From Gammaproteobacteria bacterium (lineage in GTDB: Bacteria; Pseudomonadota; Gammaproteobacteria; Pseudomonadales; Azotimanducaceae): a stretch of DNA of 64,000 nt. Below the pieces are notes generated by a model. That model had not been told where the DNA came from. It searched no databases and was given only the letters and a program-made list of their open reading frames with translations. Every line of letters begins with the position of its first letter. Within the stretch, counting starts at the first letter, position 1. Position numbers and translations under genes: made by a program. Where the stretch lies: NCBI GenBank assembly GCA_009843635.1, contig VYDB01000033.1, positions 62,001 through 126,000 on the forward strand, given 5' to 3'. This document shows positions 21,693 through 30,908 of this stretch, piece after piece.

Positions 21693-21785
21693 TGGCGGAA
21701 GAGGTAGGAGTCGAACCCACCAGGCGCGATTTCGCGCCTCAACGGCTTTGAAGGCCGCGCGCCCCACCGGAGACGATGCTCTTCC
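21693..21785 (-). tRNA. selC: tRNA-Sec (anticodon TCA), CCA encoded
   Basis: 93-nt tRNA gene with all hallmarks of selenocysteine tRNA: first bases GGAAGAG, a 6-bp D stem (CGTCTC/GGGGCG, loop CGGT), an anticodon loop CTTCAAA with TCA, a long variable arm with a 7-bp stem (AGGCGCG/CGCGCCT), a T loop TTCGACT, discriminator G and encoded CCA. The T stem GTGGG/CCTAC and acceptor GGAAGAG/CTCTTCC total 12 pairs, one fewer than the 8+5 of E. coli. It is charged with Ser, converted by SelA and delivered by SelB to UGA codons; both genes lie just upstream on the same strand. Confidence 0.95.
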
Positions 21786-21877: not shown

Positions 21878-22222
21878 CTAGAATAACGGGCCGAAGAGCA
21901 AGCTGCCCGCAACGCCTGCCATGCCGAGCGCCATGGCCAGCATCAGGTTGAACAGCCTCGATGAGTCCGTCCGCTGCTCCGCACGCATGTCGTCAATGCG
22001 CCGATTGACGTCGTTGAAGCGCTGGTCCATCTCTGCCTTGATGCGCTCGTACTGCGCCTGCAGGGACGCCTCAAGGGTCTCCCGCAGCTGCTCCGGGGTG
22101 ACCGCGAACTTCTCGATCGAGTTGGCGATGGCCTCAAGGGTCGCCCCCGCCTGCCGCCGGTCAACTCCCGTGGCCTCAAGGCTTGTGGCCATGTCCGAAA
22201 TTTCCTTTAGTGCCCGTTTCAT
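21878..22222 (-). CDS. Small coiled-coil protein with C-terminal membrane anchor (DUF1640-like)
   Basis: 114 aa. Residues about 35-85 are a heptad-rich amphipathic helix (LRETLEASLQAQYERIKAEM... RFNDVNRRIDDMRAE), followed by a single C-terminal transmembrane segment (LMLAMALGMAGVAGSLLFG). The plan is that of DUF1640/CCDC90-type tail-anchored coiled-coil proteins; the function is unknown. It sits between selB and tRNA-Sec on the same strand, 156 bp after selB. No selenium-linked role is known for this family, so the location may be incidental. The start ATG has no strong ribosome-binding site. The 156-bp gap upstream shows nothing I recognise. Confidence 0.65.
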   Translation of the reverse strand: MKRALKEISDMATSLEATGVDRRQAGATLEAIANSIEKFAVTPEQLRETLEASLQAQYERIKAEMDQRFNDVNRRIDDMRAEQRTDSSRLFNLMLAMALGMAGVAGSLLFGPLF

Positions 22223-22378: not shown

Positions 22379-24229
22379 CTACTTCAGTTCCCCCACCACC
22401 GTTCGGGCATCGCCGTGGCGGCGGGTGTAGCCGCGGCGGTCGAAGTACTCCAGCAGTTCGATGGCAATGTTGCGGCCGATGCCGGTATGGTCCCGGAAGC
22501 GCCGCACCGTCAGCGGTTCCTGGTTGGCGAGGGTGGCCACTTGACCTGCGATGGCGGTCAGCCGTTCGGGCAGGTAGAAGCGCTTGGGCGAAATCTGCAC
22601 TAGCAGGCCGCGCTGGGCGAGGCTCTTCAGGCCGGATTCGAGCGGTGCCAAGGGCGTTTGCAGGGCCTTGGCCAAGTCGCCCAGGCTGGGCGCTTGGTCT
22701 TGGTCCAAGCGGGGCCGCACGCGGTTGAAAAGCGCCTTCTGCTGTGGCGGCAGTTCGGCGACGTGCGCGGGCAGGTGGTAGGTGCCGGCGGTGAGCTGCA
22801 GGCGCTTCTCGGAAAGCAGCTCGTTGAGAACGGGGACTTGGAAGCGGTCCGGCATGGTGCTTGGCAGGCGGTTGGGCGCGAATCCGGGCGCAGCTGGATG
22901 CTCGCGTTGGTGCTGGGCGGCGAAGTCAAGGGCGATGCGGCGCCAGTCCGACCAGAGTGCCTGCCGCATGGCTTCCCCTTCGTGCATCTTTAGTTCGAAA
23001 CCGCCCAAGGCTTCCTTGAGCTCGTCGTCGGCGAGCCCTAGGGTGTTCTGCAATCGGTCCACGGCCAGCGGACCCTGTGCGAGGAGGTCAGCGACGATGC
23101 GGGATCGATCATCGGCCTTGAATGCCTCGATCATGGCGAGGCGGGCTGGGTCGCGCCGCCGCGCGGAGGGCTTCAGATCGGTGAGCACGCGTCCGCCGCC
23201 CAAGGTGCGGTCCAAGCCGTGGTCGCGCAGCACTAAGTGGTCGCCGTGGCGGGCGCTTAAAGGTTCGTCGGTCACGATTTCCACCGTTCGGCGCTCTCCG
23301 GGCAGCGCCTTGCCGGCGTCCAGCAACGCCAAGCGGCCAGTGCTGTGGGAGGTGGCGTGGTAGATGTGGACTGGCAGCCAGTGCTTCAGCGGGCGTGGGA
23401 AGTCGTGGAGGATGCGCAGGTCCACCGCGAAGTTGCGCCACGATGGCGTCGGGGTGGCGGTCAGCCAGCAGCCGCGCCGGACTTCGTCCAAGCCAACGCC
23501 CGCCAGGTTGATCGCTGCCCGGTCGCCCAAGGCGGCGCGGTCAGCGGTCGCCTCCTGCGCCCTTAGGCCGCGCACCCGGGCGGTTTGGTTGCCGGGGAAG
23601 ATGTGGACCTCGTCGCCTTGGCGGACCGTCCCGGAGTGAACGGTGCCGGTAGCCACCAAGCCAGCGCCTTGGATGTTGAAGGCGCGGTCGACCGCGAGGC
23701 GGAATTGGCCTTGGGCTCGAGAGGATGGGGAGGTATCGGCTGCCGCCCAAAGCGCTTGCTTCAATTCAGGGATGCCGGTGCCGGTGCTGGCGGATGTGCG
23801 GACGATCGGCGCGTTTTCGAGAAAGGTGCCTTGCAGGAAGGCGCGCAGTTCGGCCTCGGCCTGCTCGATGCGTTCGACAGATGCCCGGTCGCACTTGGTC
23901 AGCGCCACGAGGCCCCGGCCTACGCCGGTGAGCGTGAGGATTTGCAGGTGTTCCCGGGTCTGGGGCATGGGGCCGTCGTCGGCACTCACCACCAGCAGCG
24001 CGAATTGCATGGCCGCTACACCGGCCACCATGTTGTGGATGAAGCGATGGTGGCCAGGCACGTCGATAAAGCCGAGCACGTCGCCGTTTTGGCGCTGATA
24101 GGCAAAGCCGAGGTCGATGGTGAGGCCGCGGCGGCGCTCATCTTCCAACACGTCGGTGTCCACCCCGGTCAGGGCCTTCACCAGGCTGGTCTTGCCGTGG
24201 TCCACATGGCCGGCCAGGGTTACGATCAT
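22379..24229 (-). CDS. selB: Selenocysteine-specific translation elongation factor SelB
   Basis: 616-aa GTPase that carries selenocysteyl-tRNA to UGA codons marked by a SECIS hairpin. The G domain starts at the N-terminus: GHVDHGKT (residues 7-14), DVPGH (56-60) and TKCD (111-114). EF-Tu-like domains 2-3 follow (QFRLAVDRAFNIQGAGLVATGTV), then the C-terminal winged-helix repeats that bind SECIS RNA, ending FRDHTGIGRNIAIELLEYFDRRGYTRR, a classic SelB C-terminal helix set. The length is normal. The ATG overlaps the selA stop by 4 bp (ATGA), so it is translated with selA. Confidence 0.97.
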   Translation of the reverse strand: MIVTLAGHVDHGKTSLVKALTGVDTDVLEDERRRGLTIDLGFAYQRQNGDVLGFIDVPGHHRFIHNMVAGVAAMQFALLVVSADDGPMPQTREHLQILTLTGVGRGLVALTKCDRASVERIEQAEAELRAFLQGTFLENAPIVRTSASTGTGIPELKQALWAAADTSPSSRAQGQFRLAVDRAFNIQGAGLVATGTVHSGTVRQGDEVHIFPGNQTARVRGLRAQEATADRAALGDRAAINLAGVGLDEVRRGCWLTATPTPSWRNFAVDLRILHDFPRPLKHWLPVHIYHATSHSTGRLALLDAGKALPGERRTVEIVTDEPLSARHGDHLVLRDHGLDRTLGGGRVLTDLKPSARRRDPARLAMIEAFKADDRSRIVADLLAQGPLAVDRLQNTLGLADDELKEALGGFELKMHEGEAMRQALWSDWRRIALDFAAQHQREHPAAPGFAPNRLPSTMPDRFQVPVLNELLSEKRLQLTAGTYHLPAHVAELPPQQKALFNRVRPRLDQDQAPSLGDLAKALQTPLAPLESGLKSLAQRGLLVQISPKRFYLPERLTAIAGQVATLANQEPLTVRRFRDHTGIGRNIAIELLEYFDRRGYTRRHGDARTVVGELK

Positions 24230-25584
24230 TCGAGATGGAACTCCGCCAAGCGGGAAAGCGCCCCATCGAAATCCGCCACGGAGCGCAGGTCGAGCCAGAG
24301 GGCGTCGCGCCGCAACCGCCCGATGATTTGCTGGGTGCGCCGCAGGCCTTGCTCAAGCCGGCGCACCTCGGCGGCATCTGCATGTCGGATGACCAGCGCG
24401 CGGCTTTCGATGCGCGTATCCGGCAGCGCGCCGCTGCCGATTTGGCCTTCGCTCGGCTGGCATTGGAGGTCGTAGCCGGGCAGTTTCTCGGCAAGGGCGC
24501 TGCGTAGCTGTTCCGCCCGATGCGCCAAGGCTTCAACGGGCCGGGTGAGCATTTGCAAAACTGGCAGGGCATTGGGCAACCGTTCGGGGTCTTCGTGCAG
24601 CTTGAGCACCTCGTTGAGCAGGGCCAGCGTGATCTTGTCGGCCCGCAGCGCCCGCTTCAAGGGGTTGGCGTTGAGTTGCGCGATCAGGTCCGTACGGCCA
24701 ACGATCAAGCCCGCCTGAACGCCGCCCATAAGCTTGTCGCCGCTGAAGGTTACGAGGTCGGCGCCTTGGTCGAGCACCTTGCGCGGCATGAGTTCGTAGG
24801 GCTGCTCGAAGCGGGTCAGGTCCACCAACGCGCCGCTGCCCAGGTCCACGCAGAAGGGCAGGCCCTCGGCGTGCGCCAGCTCGGCCAGTTGCGCCGTGTC
24901 CACTTCGCTGGTGAATCCGGAGATGGCGTAGTTGCTCGGATGCACCTTGAGGAACAGCGCCGTTTCCTCAGCGGTGGCGGCGTAGTCGCGCAGGTGGGTG
25001 CGGTTGGTGGTGCCCACTTCCAGCAAGCGGCAGCCGGAGCGCGCCATGAGTTCGGGCAGGCGGAAACTGCCGCCGATCTCGATCAGCTCGCCCCGGGAGA
25101 CGGTCACGGGCCGATTGAGCGCCAAGGCGTTGAGCACCAGCAGCAGGGCGGCGGCGTTGTTGTTGACCACGGTGGCGGCCTCGCCGCCGGTAAGCCCCGC
25201 CAAGCGCTCCGCGACGATGCCTTCCCGGTTGCCGCGCTGGCCGGAATCCAAGTCGTACTCCAAGTTCATCGACCCGGTGACCAAGGGCTTGATCGCGTCC
25301 CAAGCCGCTTTGTCCAACGGCGACCGGCCGAGATTGGTGTGGATGATGGTGCCCGTGAAGTTGTGCACGGCCTGGTAGCCGCGTCCGGCCAGCGCAGCGT
25401 CGATGCGCTTGGCGTACTCTCCCGGCGTTCCGGCCCAAGCGGGCACCTCGCCGCTTTGCCGGGCCGCTTGCTGCAATGCCCGCAAGCGTTCCTTGACGGC
25501 GATGGCGCCGTGCCGGATGGCCAGCGCCTGAAGTTCCGGCGCCTCAAGCAGTTTACTGATGGCGGGCAATTGGCGTGGTTGCAT
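24226..25584 (-). CDS. selA: L-seryl-tRNA(Sec) selenium transferase SelA
   Basis: 452-aa PLP enzyme that converts Ser-tRNA-Sec to Sec-tRNA-Sec with selenophosphate. The PLP lysine is Lys284 in TFSGDKLMGGVQAG, the SelA signature. Other conserved blocks are INxTGxIIHTNLGR (here VHNFTGTIIHTNLGR), GQRGNRE and VGTTNRTHLRDY. The length is normal. It is the first gene of the selA-selB unit and is divergent from nadK across 98 bp. selD, which makes selenophosphate, is not in the window, and no obvious UGA-containing selenoprotein gene is here either. Confidence 0.97.
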   Translation of the reverse strand: MQPRQLPAISKLLEAPELQALAIRHGAIAVKERLRALQQAARQSGEVPAWAGTPGEYAKRIDAALAGRGYQAVHNFTGTIIHTNLGRSPLDKAAWDAIKPLVTGSMNLEYDLDSGQRGNREGIVAERLAGLTGGEAATVVNNNAAALLLVLNALALNRPVTVSRGELIEIGGSFRLPELMARSGCRLLEVGTTNRTHLRDYAATAEETALFLKVHPSNYAISGFTSEVDTAQLAELAHAEGLPFCVDLGSGALVDLTRFEQPYELMPRKVLDQGADLVTFSGDKLMGGVQAGLIVGRTDLIAQLNANPLKRALRADKITLALLNEVLKLHEDPERLPNALPVLQMLTRPVEALAHRAEQLRSALAEKLPGYDLQCQPSEGQIGSGALPDTRIESRALVIRHADAAEVRRLEQGLRRTQQIIGRLRRDALWLDLRSVADFDGALSRLAEFHLE

Positions 25585-26596: not shown

Positions 26597-27169
26597 TTAA
26601 GGCGGAACGTCGAGGTCGCGAATCACCCCTGCATCGACAACATCGAAGGCGATGATGCGCTGCCGGTTTTGGTCGAGCACCACTTTGGCGCCTTGGTCGC
26701 CGCTTAGGTTCATCAACGCCCCGAAGTGGTCTTGACCGAACCCGACTGGATGGCCGGGACTTCCGTTGTGGAACGGACGGACAATCGCGCAGTGGTCGTT
26801 CAATCCCCGGCGCAGTGTCCCAAGGGTGGACGCCTCGACCCAAGGCATGTCGCCCAAGGCAACAAAGGCACCGTCGAAGCCCTTTGCGGCAGCGATGCCT
26901 GCCGCCAACGAATGGCCCATGCCCAAGTGCGCCTCGGCGGCAAAGACCCTCGTGCAGCCACCGAGACCCTGCGCCCAGTCATTGTCTTCGGGACGCAGAA
27001 CCAGGAAAACCGACTCAAAACCGTTGTAGAGGGCGAGGGTGCTTTCCAGCAGGGTGCGCCCGTCTGGCATCGGCCATTGCCGTTTGTCGCTGCCGAAGCG
27101 CCGCGCGAATCCCGCCGCCAGAATGACAGCGGCGCAGGAAAAGCCTCGTTCAGGCCCTAGCGCGTTCAA
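26597..27169 (-). CDS. MocA/MobA-like molybdenum cofactor nucleotidyltransferase
   Basis: 190-aa NTP-transferase-3 protein that probably attaches CMP (MocA) or GMP (MobA) to molybdopterin. The nucleotide-binding loop AVILAAGFARRFGSDK is near residues 14-29, and ALGDMPWVEAS carries the metal-binding Asp. The sequence GHPVGFGQDHFGALMNLSGDQG is of the MocA/NifU-like xanthine-dehydrogenase type rather than classical MobA; I give it in parts as GHPVGFG and LSGDQGAK. It overlaps the end of xdhC by 20 bp and is co-transcribed with it, which supports cytosine-type cofactor for a xanthine-dehydrogenase-family enzyme that lies outside the window. Confidence 0.82.
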   Translation of the reverse strand: MNALGPERGFSCAAVILAAGFARRFGSDKRQWPMPDGRTLLESTLALYNGFESVFLVLRPEDNDWAQGLGGCTRVFAAEAHLGMGHSLAAGIAAAKGFDGAFVALGDMPWVEASTLGTLRRGLNDHCAIVRPFHNGSPGHPVGFGQDHFGALMNLSGDQGAKVVLDQNRQRIIAFDVVDAGVIRDLDVPP

Positions 27170-28148
27170 GCGTTTGGCGGCTCTCGGCCCCCAGTCCCTT
27201 CTGCACGGCGATGATTTCCGCCATCACGGCGACGGCGATTTCCGGCGGGGTCTTGCTGCCGATGGGCAGGCCGATGGGGGCGTGCAGGCGTTCGAGTTCA
27301 GCTTCGCCCAGGTCCAGCGCCCGCAAGCGCTCGCGACGGCTGGCCGAGGTGCGGCTTGATCCCATGGCGCCGACGTAGAAGGCTTCGGTGGTTAGCGCCT
27401 CCATCAGGCCCATGTCGTCGATGCGGGGATCGTGGGTGAGGGCGACGATGGCGGAGGAGGGGTCTCGGGCGTGGGCCCGCACCGCATCGTCGGGCATGTC
27501 GTTGATCAACCGCACGCCGGGGACGTTGAAGTCCTGCAGCAGGTGGTCGCGCGGGTCGCAGACCGTGACTTCGTAATCCAGGGTCTGCGCCATGTCGGCT
27601 AGGTACCTGGAAACCATGCCGGCGCCGATGATGAAGAGCTGGCGGCGCGGGCCGTAGGTATGCTCAAGCACTTCGCTTGCCGGGTCCCACTCGAGGGGTT
27701 CGTGAGCCTCCACATCCCGATGGCTGAAGTCGCCGTGACGCAGATCCACCCGTCGCCGCACCGGACGCCGTTCGGCCAAGCGATTCTTCAGATGCTGGAA
27801 ATGGGACAGCCAAGGCTCGACGGCCTGCAGCGGCTCGACCACGATGTAGAGGTGGCCGCCGCAGGGCAGGCCCAGCTTCTCGGTTTCCTCGGCGGTGATG
27901 CCGTACTGAAAGAACTGCGCCTGCTTGGCGGCGAGTTCGCCCCGGGTGAGCTTCTCCAAGAGGTCGTCCTCGACGCAGCCCCCGGACAGGGAGCCTGAGA
28001 CTTGGCCTCGGGGATTGCAGGCGAACAGGGAGCCGATGGGGCGGGGCGATGAGCCCCAAGTCTGCACTACCGTGGCCAGCCAGCACGGCTGGCCGCCGTG
28101 CAGCCAGGCGGCGACTTGGTTCAGCACTTCGTTATCGACAGCCTGCAT
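27150..28148 (-). CDS. xdhC: XdhC/CoxI family molybdenum cofactor chaperone
   Basis: 332-aa XdhC-family protein that binds sulfurated molybdenum cofactor and delivers it to xanthine-dehydrogenase-type enzymes. The N-terminal XdhC/CoxI domain has TWGSSPRPIGS and GSLSGGCVEDDL. The C-terminal Rossmann domain has IIGAGMVSRYLA, ALTHDPRIDDMGLM and GAMGSSRTSASRRERL. The ATG at 28148 fits the family's usual start; the open frame to 28262 adds an unlikely extension that overlaps the pepN upstream region. It is transcribed with the mocA-like gene and divergent from pepN. Confidence 0.9.
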   Translation of the reverse strand: MQAVDNEVLNQVAAWLHGGQPCWLATVVQTWGSSPRPIGSLFACNPRGQVSGSLSGGCVEDDLLEKLTRGELAAKQAQFFQYGITAEETEKLGLPCGGHLYIVVEPLQAVEPWLSHFQHLKNRLAERRPVRRRVDLRHGDFSHRDVEAHEPLEWDPASEVLEHTYGPRRQLFIIGAGMVSRYLADMAQTLDYEVTVCDPRDHLLQDFNVPGVRLINDMPDDAVRAHARDPSSAIVALTHDPRIDDMGLMEALTTEAFYVGAMGSSRTSASRRERLRALDLGEAELERLHAPIGLPIGSKTPPEIAVAVMAEIIAVQKGLGAESRQTLERARA

Positions 28149-28250
28149 GGGTAGAATAGTGAGTCGTTCGACGCAGCCCAAAAATTCTAGCATGGGTTGG
28201 GTTTGTGCCCGAACTCCCCCCAGCTTGCCAAAGACACGAGGAGCCCGCTC

Positions 28251-30908
28251 TTGCCATCCCAAGCCCTACCCGCACCCACATTTCTCAAGGATTACCAGCC
28301 GCCCGCCTACCGCACCGAGGAAACCGAGCTCGCCTTTGACATTCGTGACGGCGCGACCACGGTGCGCTCCAGGCTGCGCATTCGGCGCACCGCCGATGCG
28401 GCCGCCGATGCGCCGCTCGTGCTCGATGGCAAGGAACTCGAACTGCTTGCCGTCCGCTTGGATGGCGAGGCGTTAAGCGGCAACGAATACCAGGTGGACG
28501 ATGAGTCCCTGACCATTCATGCGCCGCCGTCGGCGTTCGAACTGGAAGTCGAAACCCGCATCAAGCCCGAGGACAACAGTTCCCTGCTGGGGCTGTACAA
28601 GTCGCAGGCGATGTACTGCACCCAATGCGAGGCCCAGGGCTTTCGCAAGATCACCTACTACCAGGATCGGCCCGACGTGCTGGCCAAGTTCACCACCACC
28701 ATCACCGCCGACGCCGAACGCTTCCCGGTGCTGCTGTCCAACGGCAACCTGGTGGCGGACGATGAGGGTGCCGAGCGGCGCACGGTCGCTTGGCAGGATC
28801 CCTTCCCCAAGCCCTCTTACCTGTTTGCCCTAGTGGCCGGCGATCTGGCCTGCATGACCGATCACTTCATCACCATGAGCGGGCGGCGGGTGGAACTGCG
28901 CATTTACTCCGAGCCGCACAACATCAGCCAATGCGAGTACGCCATGGGGGCCGTGAAGCGGGCCATGCGCTGGGATGAGGAGACCTTCGGGCGCGAGTAC
29001 GACCTGGACATCTTCATGATCGTGGCGGTGGAGGACTTCAACGCCGGAGCCATGGAGAACAAGGGCTTGAACATCTTCAACACCACCTGCGTTCTGGCCT
29101 CTCCGGATACCGCTTCGGACGCCACCTACGAGCGGGTGGAGGCGATCATCGCCCACGAGTACTTCCACAACTGGTCCGGCAACCGGGTCACCTGCCGGGA
29201 TTGGTTCCAGCTCAGCCTCAAGGAGGGCTTCACGGTGTTCCGGGATGCGGAATTCACGTCCGACATGCACTCTAGGACCGTGAAGCGCATCGAGGACGTA
29301 TCGCTCCTGCGGGCGGTGCAGTTCGCCGAGGACAGCGGCCCCATGGCCCATTCCGTGCGTCCGGATTCCTACATCGAGATCTCCAATTTCTACACCCCCA
29401 CCGTCTATGAGAAGGGCGCCGAGGTGGTGGGCATGGCCCAGCGCCTGGTGGGGCGTGAAGGGTTCCGCAAGGGCTGCGACCTGTACTTCGACCGCCACGA
29501 CGGCCAGGCCGTGACCACCGAGGATTTCGTGGCCGCCATGGAGGACGCCAACGGCGTCGATTTGGGCCAATTCCGGCGCTGGTACGCCCAAGCGGGCACC
29601 CCGGTCCTGAAGGTGGGCACCGAGTGGCAGGACGGCACGTTCCGCATCGAGATCGAACAGCAATGCCCAGAGACGCCGGGCCAGCCGGAGAAGGCGCCCT
29701 TCCACATCCCGGTCCTGATGGGATTGCTAGGTGCCGACGGCCGGGAGCTCACCGTGTCGGATTTGCGCATTGCCAGCGATGACGCCACCGTCGAGGTGCG
29801 CGGCGCCAGCCTCTTGGCGCACTTGCGCGAACCAACGACGACCTTGGAGGTGGACGGCTTGGCCACACCGCCGGCGGTCAGCTTCCTGCGGGGCTTCTCT
29901 GCCCCGGTGCGGGTACGCTATCCCCGTTCGCCCGAGGCCCTGGCCTTCCTGGCCCGCCACGACAGCGACGGCTTCGCCCGCTGGGACGCCATGCAGAGCC
30001 TGTTGCTCGACGAGTTGGACCGAATGGGCGGTGGGGCCGAGGTCAGTGAAGCCGTGCTGAACCTGTTCCGCGCCCTGATCGGCGATGCAGCCGAGGCGGA
30101 GGACGCCGAGGCCGGCTCCATGCTCCGGGAGATGCTGCGGCTGCCCAGCGAGGCCTATGTGTTCGAACAGGTGGAGTCGATCGACGTGGAGGCGATCATC
30201 GCCGCCCGGGACCGGCTGCTTGAGACCTTGGCCAAGGAACTGGCCGATGGTTGGCGTCAACTCTATGAACGCCACGCACCCCAAGGCCCCTACCAGCCTG
30301 ACGCACTGGGCATGGCGCGCCGGGGCCTGAACAACCTCGCCTTGGGCTACCTGGCCCACTCCGGGGCGGAGGATGTCAACCGCTTGCTGAAGGCCCATCT
30401 GGACACCGCCGACAACCTGACCGACCGTTTGGGGGCGCTGCGCCAGATCGCCGACCGCGGCGCCTGTCCCAACCGGGCGGAGGTGCTGGACGACTTCTAC
30501 CAACGCTGGCAGCACGAGAGCCTGGTGGTCAATCAATGGTTCGGTATTCAGGCCAGCGCCCGCGGCACGGATGTGGCGGCGGTTCGGGAACTGGAGGCCC
30601 ACCCCGGCTTCGATCCCAGCAACCCCAACAAGCTACGCTCGCTCTACGGCGCGTTTACCCGTCAAAACAGCCGCAACTTCCATGTTGCCGATGGCTCCGG
30701 ATACGATTTTCTAGCCAATGTCATTGCCAGCCTCGACGCCAAGAACCCGCAGATGGCCTCGCGCCTGCTGACGCCCCTAACCCAGTGGAAGAAGTTTGAC
30801 GCGGCCCGCCAACGGCTCATGAGGGCTGGCTTGGAACGCTTGGAAGCCAAGGAAGGATTATCCAAGGACGTGTTCGAGGTGGTGACCAAGAGCTTGGCGC
30901 AGGCCTGA
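28251..30908 (+). CDS. pepN: Aminopeptidase N
   Basis: 885-aa M1 zinc aminopeptidase that removes N-terminal residues from peptides in the cytoplasm. With the chosen start, GAMEN is at residues 266-270 and the zinc site H302-E303-x2-H306 with E325 (HEYFHNW, 18-residue spacing) matches E. coli PepN with an offset of five. The C-terminal helical domain (residues about 540-885) is complete. Start: a TTG at 28251 (MPSQALPAPTFL) preceded by GAGGAG 8-9 bp upstream; the frame is open to 28197 but there is no site there. No in-frame ATG exists near the N-terminus. Confidence 0.96.
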   Translation: MPSQALPAPTFLKDYQPPAYRTEETELAFDIRDGATTVRSRLRIRRTADAAADAPLVLDGKELELLAVRLDGEALSGNEYQVDDESLTIHAPPSAFELEVETRIKPEDNSSLLGLYKSQAMYCTQCEAQGFRKITYYQDRPDVLAKFTTTITADAERFPVLLSNGNLVADDEGAERRTVAWQDPFPKPSYLFALVAGDLACMTDHFITMSGRRVELRIYSEPHNISQCEYAMGAVKRAMRWDEETFGREYDLDIFMIVAVEDFNAGAMENKGLNIFNTTCVLASPDTASDATYERVEAIIAHEYFHNWSGNRVTCRDWFQLSLKEGFTVFRDAEFTSDMHSRTVKRIEDVSLLRAVQFAEDSGPMAHSVRPDSYIEISNFYTPTVYEKGAEVVGMAQRLVGREGFRKGCDLYFDRHDGQAVTTEDFVAAMEDANGVDLGQFRRWYAQAGTPVLKVGTEWQDGTFRIEIEQQCPETPGQPEKAPFHIPVLMGLLGADGRELTVSDLRIASDDATVEVRGASLLAHLREPTTTLEVDGLATPPAVSFLRGFSAPVRVRYPRSPEALAFLARHDSDGFARWDAMQSLLLDELDRMGGGAEVSEAVLNLFRALIGDAAEAEDAEAGSMLREMLRLPSEAYVFEQVESIDVEAIIAARDRLLETLAKELADGWRQLYERHAPQGPYQPDALGMARRGLNNLALGYLAHSGAEDVNRLLKAHLDTADNLTDRLGALRQIADRGACPNRAEVLDDFYQRWQHESLVVNQWFGIQASARGTDVAAVRELEAHPGFDPSNPNKLRSLYGAFTRQNSRNFHVADGSGYDFLANVIASLDAKNPQMASRLLTPLTQWKKFDAARQRLMRAGLERLEAKEGLSKDVFEVVTKSLAQA

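Follow-up and report, generated by a model that had tools for sequence, protein, structure and literature searches.

The gene selC, on the minus strand at 21785-21693 of the 64,000-nucleotide stretch of DNA analysed here (the window), encodes a real, conserved tRNA-Sec with one base pair fewer in its acceptor/T arm than the textbook form of Escherichia coli. It very probably serves a gammaproteobacterial selABC system as its functional tRNA-Sec, and it belongs to the known 12-bp class characterised by a 7/5 partition, an additional nucleotide 7a and a bulge at position 43a.

Structure of the tRNA and of its acceptor/T branch

ARAGORN and the Rfam model RF01852 agree on the identity of the gene, the latter with 75.2 bits for a cut-off of 47, and in a covariance-model search it is the sole tRNA-Sec of the genome above the cut-off. 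Read along the minus strand from G1 at 21785, the sequence runs GGAAGAG C AT CGTCTCCGGTGGGGCG CGCGGC CTTCAAA GCCGT(T)G, followed by the variable arm and by GTGGG TTCGACT CCTAC CTCTTCC G CCA, with the discriminator G73 at 21696 and an encoded CCA at 21695-21693. All features expected of a tRNA-Sec are present: the UCA anticodon (TCA at 21751-21749, in the loop CTTCAAA of the anticodon arm at 21740-21759, as placed by ARAGORN and by comparison with relatives), a D arm with a 6-bp stem and a 4-nt loop (21760-21775, from the covariance model and the pairing in relatives), a long variable arm (21721-21739, from the sequence and the covariance model) and G73. According to the literature, the D arm is the main feature for SelA (PMC7609411) and the long variable arm is an element for SerRS.

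The sequence-only reading had counted 12 paired bases 3' of the T loop. This is borne out: CCTAC and CTCTTCC make up 12 nt, and the fold has seven acceptor and five T-stem pairs. The 5' acceptor strand GGAAGAG (21779-21785) pairs over all seven positions with CTCTTCC (21697-21703), and the next base, the C at 21778, faces a C and cannot pair, as had also been noted. This nucleotide, 7a, is the first of a 3-nt linker, C-A-T. The T arm (21704-21720) has a 5-bp stem, GTGGG/CCTAC, with a G51.U63 wobble. The acceptor pairs 1:72 to 7:66 all form in the 57 distinct 12-type sequences of relatives, and in none of them does 7a pair with the next 3' base (C-C in 45, U-C in 11 and A-C in one). The canonical 8/5 form, an 8-bp acceptor stem with a 5-bp T stem, is thus found neither here, where the eighth pair would be C-C, nor in any of these 57 relatives. 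In four other 12-type tRNAs, the extra 5' base is a bulge inside the acceptor stem, after pair 5.

How the branch is split between its two stems is ambiguous, 7+5 or 6+6, with a total of 12 either way. The thermodynamic fold has the same 12 pairs divided 6+6, G48:C66 replacing G7:C66. Pairs of both types are possible in 57/57 sequences, one of which, with A7:U66, slightly favours 7/5. The stretch from G1 to the D stem measures 10 nt in both the 12- and the 13-bp forms (7+3 versus 8+2), which indicates that it is the 3' partner that the 12-bp form has lost.

The 6-bp D stem, the long variable arm and the TCA anticodon had been described as canonical, and so they are. The anticodon stem is not fully so, as it has a bulged U that was overlooked. 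This U, position 43a at 21741 (compare the class description in PMC5330540), is required to close the sixth pair of the stem; the last anticodon-stem pair forms in all 57 distinct 12-type relatives with the bulge and in none without it. An independent-pairs test of the 12-bp branch against bulge 43a had very few independent pairs to draw on.

Losing one base would be the simplest route from 13 to 12 pairs, and the assembly is a draft in 152 contigs, so that a sequencing or assembly error might have dropped a 3'-side base from an ordinary 8+5 tRNA-Sec. However, the same 12-nt side recurs in all 42 tRNA-Sec-bearing genomes examined from the family, G001 and G006, each a single contig, among them, and other families have it too; the 7a nucleotide, unpairable in 57/57 sequences, is accompanied by the 43a bulge. 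Conservation across independent genomes refutes an error, whose probability we regard as negligible.

A described class and its spread

Santesmasses 2017 described 47 bacterial tRNA-Sec, from Gammaproteobacteria and others, with a 12-bp AT-stem partitioned 7/5, an extra 7a, a bulge 43a and a location near selA and selB (PMC5330540). The window tRNA shares with them the 7 nt that separate G73 from the T stem, the linker nucleotide 7a, the bulge 43a, the adjoining selA and selB genes and the gammaproteobacterial host, and we found no structural difference from the class as presented in the part of that paper devoted to it. The relatives have the same 7-nt spacing, with 7a in the linker in the 57 distinct sequences and as the acceptor-stem bulge in the four others. 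As the same combination of 12-bp 7/5 branch, 7a and 43a has been published, selC adds one more example to a described class and does not represent a novel type of tRNA. An accepting enzyme is also on record: the SelA of Aeromonas salmonicida is reported to work with 12-bp tRNAs, its own tRNA-Sec being of that form (reviewed in PMC10778597, PMC6267555 and PMC9961374). The likeness between the two systems, as far as the reviews describe the A. salmonicida one, lies in the 12-bp branch and, presumably, in a SelA that accepts it. Compared with E. coli tRNA-Sec (selC, 8/5), the window tRNA is alike in the 10 nt from G1 to the D stem, the D arm, the anticodon loop, G73 and the overall sequence, but the E. 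coli molecule differs in its eighth acceptor pair, C:G, in having no 43a and in the G49.U65 and C50:G64 pairs of its T stem.

The 12-bp form extends beyond the family to other families of the order (f4, f8, f12, f22, f212, f220, f221 and one genus of f224), and family f114 of the same class also has the 12-nt side. The 13-nt side occurs in families f20, f21 and f24 and in the other genus of f224. An almost identical tRNA is present in a Pseudomonadales bacterium MAG (L116). Four systems (G321, L075; G417, L080; G691, L258; and L117) have a 13-nt 3' side in which the eighth position does not pair (A-C or G-G), and may be intermediates between the 12- and 13-bp forms. The genome G622 (L236) carries tRNA-Sec in two copies of equal score, 8.6 kb apart (C1:2693448-2693535 and 2702022-2702109), both of the 12-bp type with the acceptor bulge, together with a distant SelB lineage.

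Gene neighbourhood, selenoprotein client and partner proteins

Just upstream of selC and on the same strand lie selB (22379-24229, minus strand, 616 aa; TIGR00475 with 420 bits, cut-off 242) and selA (24226-25584, minus strand, 452 aa; TIGR00474 with 505 bits, cut-off 268), which overlaps the start of selB by 4 bases; the three genes form one selA-selB-selC cluster. Between selB and selC, a 114-aa open reading frame (21878-22222, minus strand) has no match in Pfam or NCBIfam; its product is coiled-coil-like with a hydrophobic C-terminal stretch. Farther along (26597-28262, minus strand), a MocA/MobA-like nucleotidyltransferase gene overlaps an XdhC-family gene; a divergently oriented NAD kinase gene lies between these two and selA.

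The genome also contains selD and a UGA-containing selenoprotein gene, which completes the selenocysteine machinery. Formate dehydrogenase was considered as the client and rejected, as no in-frame TGA interrupts the matched stretches of its homologues in this genome. Neighbourhoods of selABC were scanned for UGA-containing genes after masking, because hits to the tRNA and to frames antisense to EF-Tu and SelA dominated the unmasked output. The masked scan found selenocysteine-type formate dehydrogenase genes near selABC in canonical 13-bp genomes and, in the 13-bp genus of f224, a UGSC gene (UGA-Gly-Ser-Cys) directly upstream of selA, a position which suggests that in this genus the client is probably part of the sel operon. 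The latter gene was seen in L247, with an in-frame TGA at 1365, and in L246. With it as the query, a UGSC gene with one in-frame TGA was found in the window genome at C58:23762-24259 (L318) and in most relatives. Its product matches NF041046 with 160.7 bits (cut-off 125), and UGSC is a known selenoprotein family (PMC2398784). In each of the 30 genes examined from relatives, the TGA has the same position, and the sequence that follows it, a GUGCA-GUU-UGCAU hairpin, is nearly invariant among them. The hairpin has no two-sided covariation among these genes, and its predicted folding is no more favourable than that of shuffled sequence (z -0.29), so that its position and its conservation are what mark it as a putative SECIS. 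We regard this UGSC gene as the probable client of the selC tRNA. A weak UGSC-like paralogue (C73:38438-38857, 25% identity) also has one in-frame TGA, and several relatives have similar second copies.

The selA-selB-selC cluster, selD and a UGSC gene with an in-frame UGA together argue that the tRNA is very probably functional. They also bear on whether it might be an allo-tRNA or a selC* tRNA-Cys that mimics a tRNA-Sec and inserts serine or cysteine. Such tRNAs resemble it in the 12-bp branch, the long variable arm, the opal anticodon and, in some, the 6-bp D stem, but by their descriptions they are partitioned 8/4 or 9/3, or 8/4 with a bulge A51a, and most have U73 or non-opal anticodons (PMC7609411). 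Here the discriminator is G73, an eighth acceptor pair is impossible in this tRNA as in all 57 relatives, and the T stem has 5 bp with no 51a bulge. Moreover, the gene is clustered with selA and selB, and it is the only tRNA-Sec in a genome that nevertheless has a UGA-containing UGSC gene. We therefore consider such a mimic highly improbable.

For a genuine tRNA-Sec, charging, conversion and delivery can be inferred from the observed structure, conservation, gene neighbourhood, SelD and UGA-containing client. SerRS would charge the tRNA with serine by means of G73 and the long variable arm. SelA would recognise the 6-bp D arm and turn serine into selenocysteine with selenophosphate from SelD, and SelB would bring the product to UGA codons with a SECIS hairpin behind them, among these the codon in the UGSC selenoprotein gene. 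The missing pair would be a trait of the lineage, inherited along with its own SelA and SelB.

It had been suggested that the local SelA and SelB may have co-adapted to the shorter branch. For SelA, A. salmonicida offers an experimental precedent, and E. coli tRNA-Sec deprived of one acceptor pair no longer supports selenocysteine read-through (PMC6267555). For SelB, the 12-bp and the canonical 13-bp systems are separate lineages, but no clear class-specific change stands out in domains 2-3. The literature places the tRNA-Sec specificity of SelB in domain 3 and the linker between domains 3 and 4 (PMC6267555). With domain limits set by homology, only one of the top 30 class-separating SelB columns falls in domains 2-3, with about 21 in the winged helices and about eight in the G domain. 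Co-adaptation of SelB at the acceptor/T branch is thus possible, but it does not show in these columns. For SelA, the columns of the N-terminal tRNA-binding part likewise did not divide cleanly by class.

SelB trees were built with 94, 71 and 47 rows. The canonical 13-bp gamma- and betaproteobacterial systems (E. coli, Pseudomonas and Paraburkholderia among them) stand apart from the 12-bp systems, nearly all of which are in SelB lineages outside the canonical clade, and the 12/13 labels are far more clustered than shuffled labels. In the more careful tree with near outgroups, all 12-bp rows and three 13-nt rows form one clade with support 88/88; two of these three have an unpaired eighth position, and one has a re-paired one. 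The two distant 12-bp systems, G622 and G751, are placed elsewhere in the larger trees. The rooting is unstable, and with distant outgroups the 12-bp systems look paraphyletic. The Pseudomonas rows group with f21 and the Halomonas row with f24; together with the almost identical tRNA of L116, this suggests that the window organism is a gammaproteobacterium of the order Pseudomonadales. Relative to the canonical clade, SelB proteins of the 12-bp lineages differ at residues 4, 549-550 and 587 (window numbering) and chiefly in the winged helices, for example with GRN for GRK. These differences may reflect another SECIS type, with a GUU apical loop, rather than the tRNA. Ala/Thr4 and Asn587 were tried as signatures of the 12-bp form and rejected, since the 13-bp genus of f224 also has Ala4 and Asn, which makes them lineage markers; E. 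coli has Ala4 as well.

Exclusion of EF-Tu and meaning of the shorter branch

The view that the 13-bp branch as such keeps EF-Tu away, on which the sequence-only reading relied, is outdated, as reviews ascribe this role to sequence antideterminants (PMC11231383). Pairs 49:65, 50:64 and 51:63 determine the affinity of EF-Tu, which E. coli tRNA-Sec repels by means of C7:G66, G49:U65 and C50:G64 (PMC11231383; PMC9976931). The E. coli set is not general, since only 7/35 fully paired 13-bp tRNAs have G49.U65. The window tRNA has G7:C66, G49:C65, U50:A64 and G51.U63. A wobble at 51:63 is present in 53 of the 61 distinct 12-type sequences (two as U.G), compared with 1/43 of the 13-type and 6/93 ordinary tRNAs collected for the comparison; the Fisher p of about 9e-20 is inflated by shared descent, as many sequences inherited the wobble together and the test overstates their independence. 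A few 12-type tRNAs do without it. Family f224 contains both forms: the 13-bp genus resembles E. coli in its G49.U65 and in an eighth pair, C:G, and in the 12-bp genus the wobble is G51.U63, as though it had shifted together with branch length. Its place in the EF-Tu-sensitive zone of the T stem suggests that the wobble may be kept as an antideterminant. Its conservation in the 12-bp class is possibly an unreported feature, being unmentioned in the section on 12-bp tRNAs (section 10) of PMC5330540.

EF-Tu favours 12-bp branches (PMC9961374), and the window tRNA lacks all three antideterminant pairs of E. coli. The shorter branch could then let EF-Tu carry the tRNA, with UGA partly read by Ser- or Sec-tRNA independently of SelB. 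This is very unlikely, as a full SelB is kept in nearly all genomes with the tRNA, unrestrained UGA suppression would be harmful, and the wobble is conserved in the very region to which EF-Tu is sensitive. We favour delivery by SelB, with EF-Tu excluded by the T-stem sequence, perhaps by the G51.U63 wobble, and not by a thirteenth pair. It is tempting, if rather doubtful, to go further and propose that the 12-bp class has its own recognition code, in which loss of the thirteenth pair went along with the unpaired 7a and the bulge 43a, and the 51:63 G.U pair took over the rejection of EF-Tu.

The 12-bp class had been described before, and selenoprotein engineering already makes use of 12-bp tRNA/SelA pairs; the interest of this tRNA, a moderate one, lies in the question of discrimination between EF-Tu and SelB. 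The textbook 13-bp rule for bacterial tRNA-Sec fails across a large gammaproteobacterial group, which offers natural sets of tRNA, SelA and SelB for learning what SelB and EF-Tu really read.
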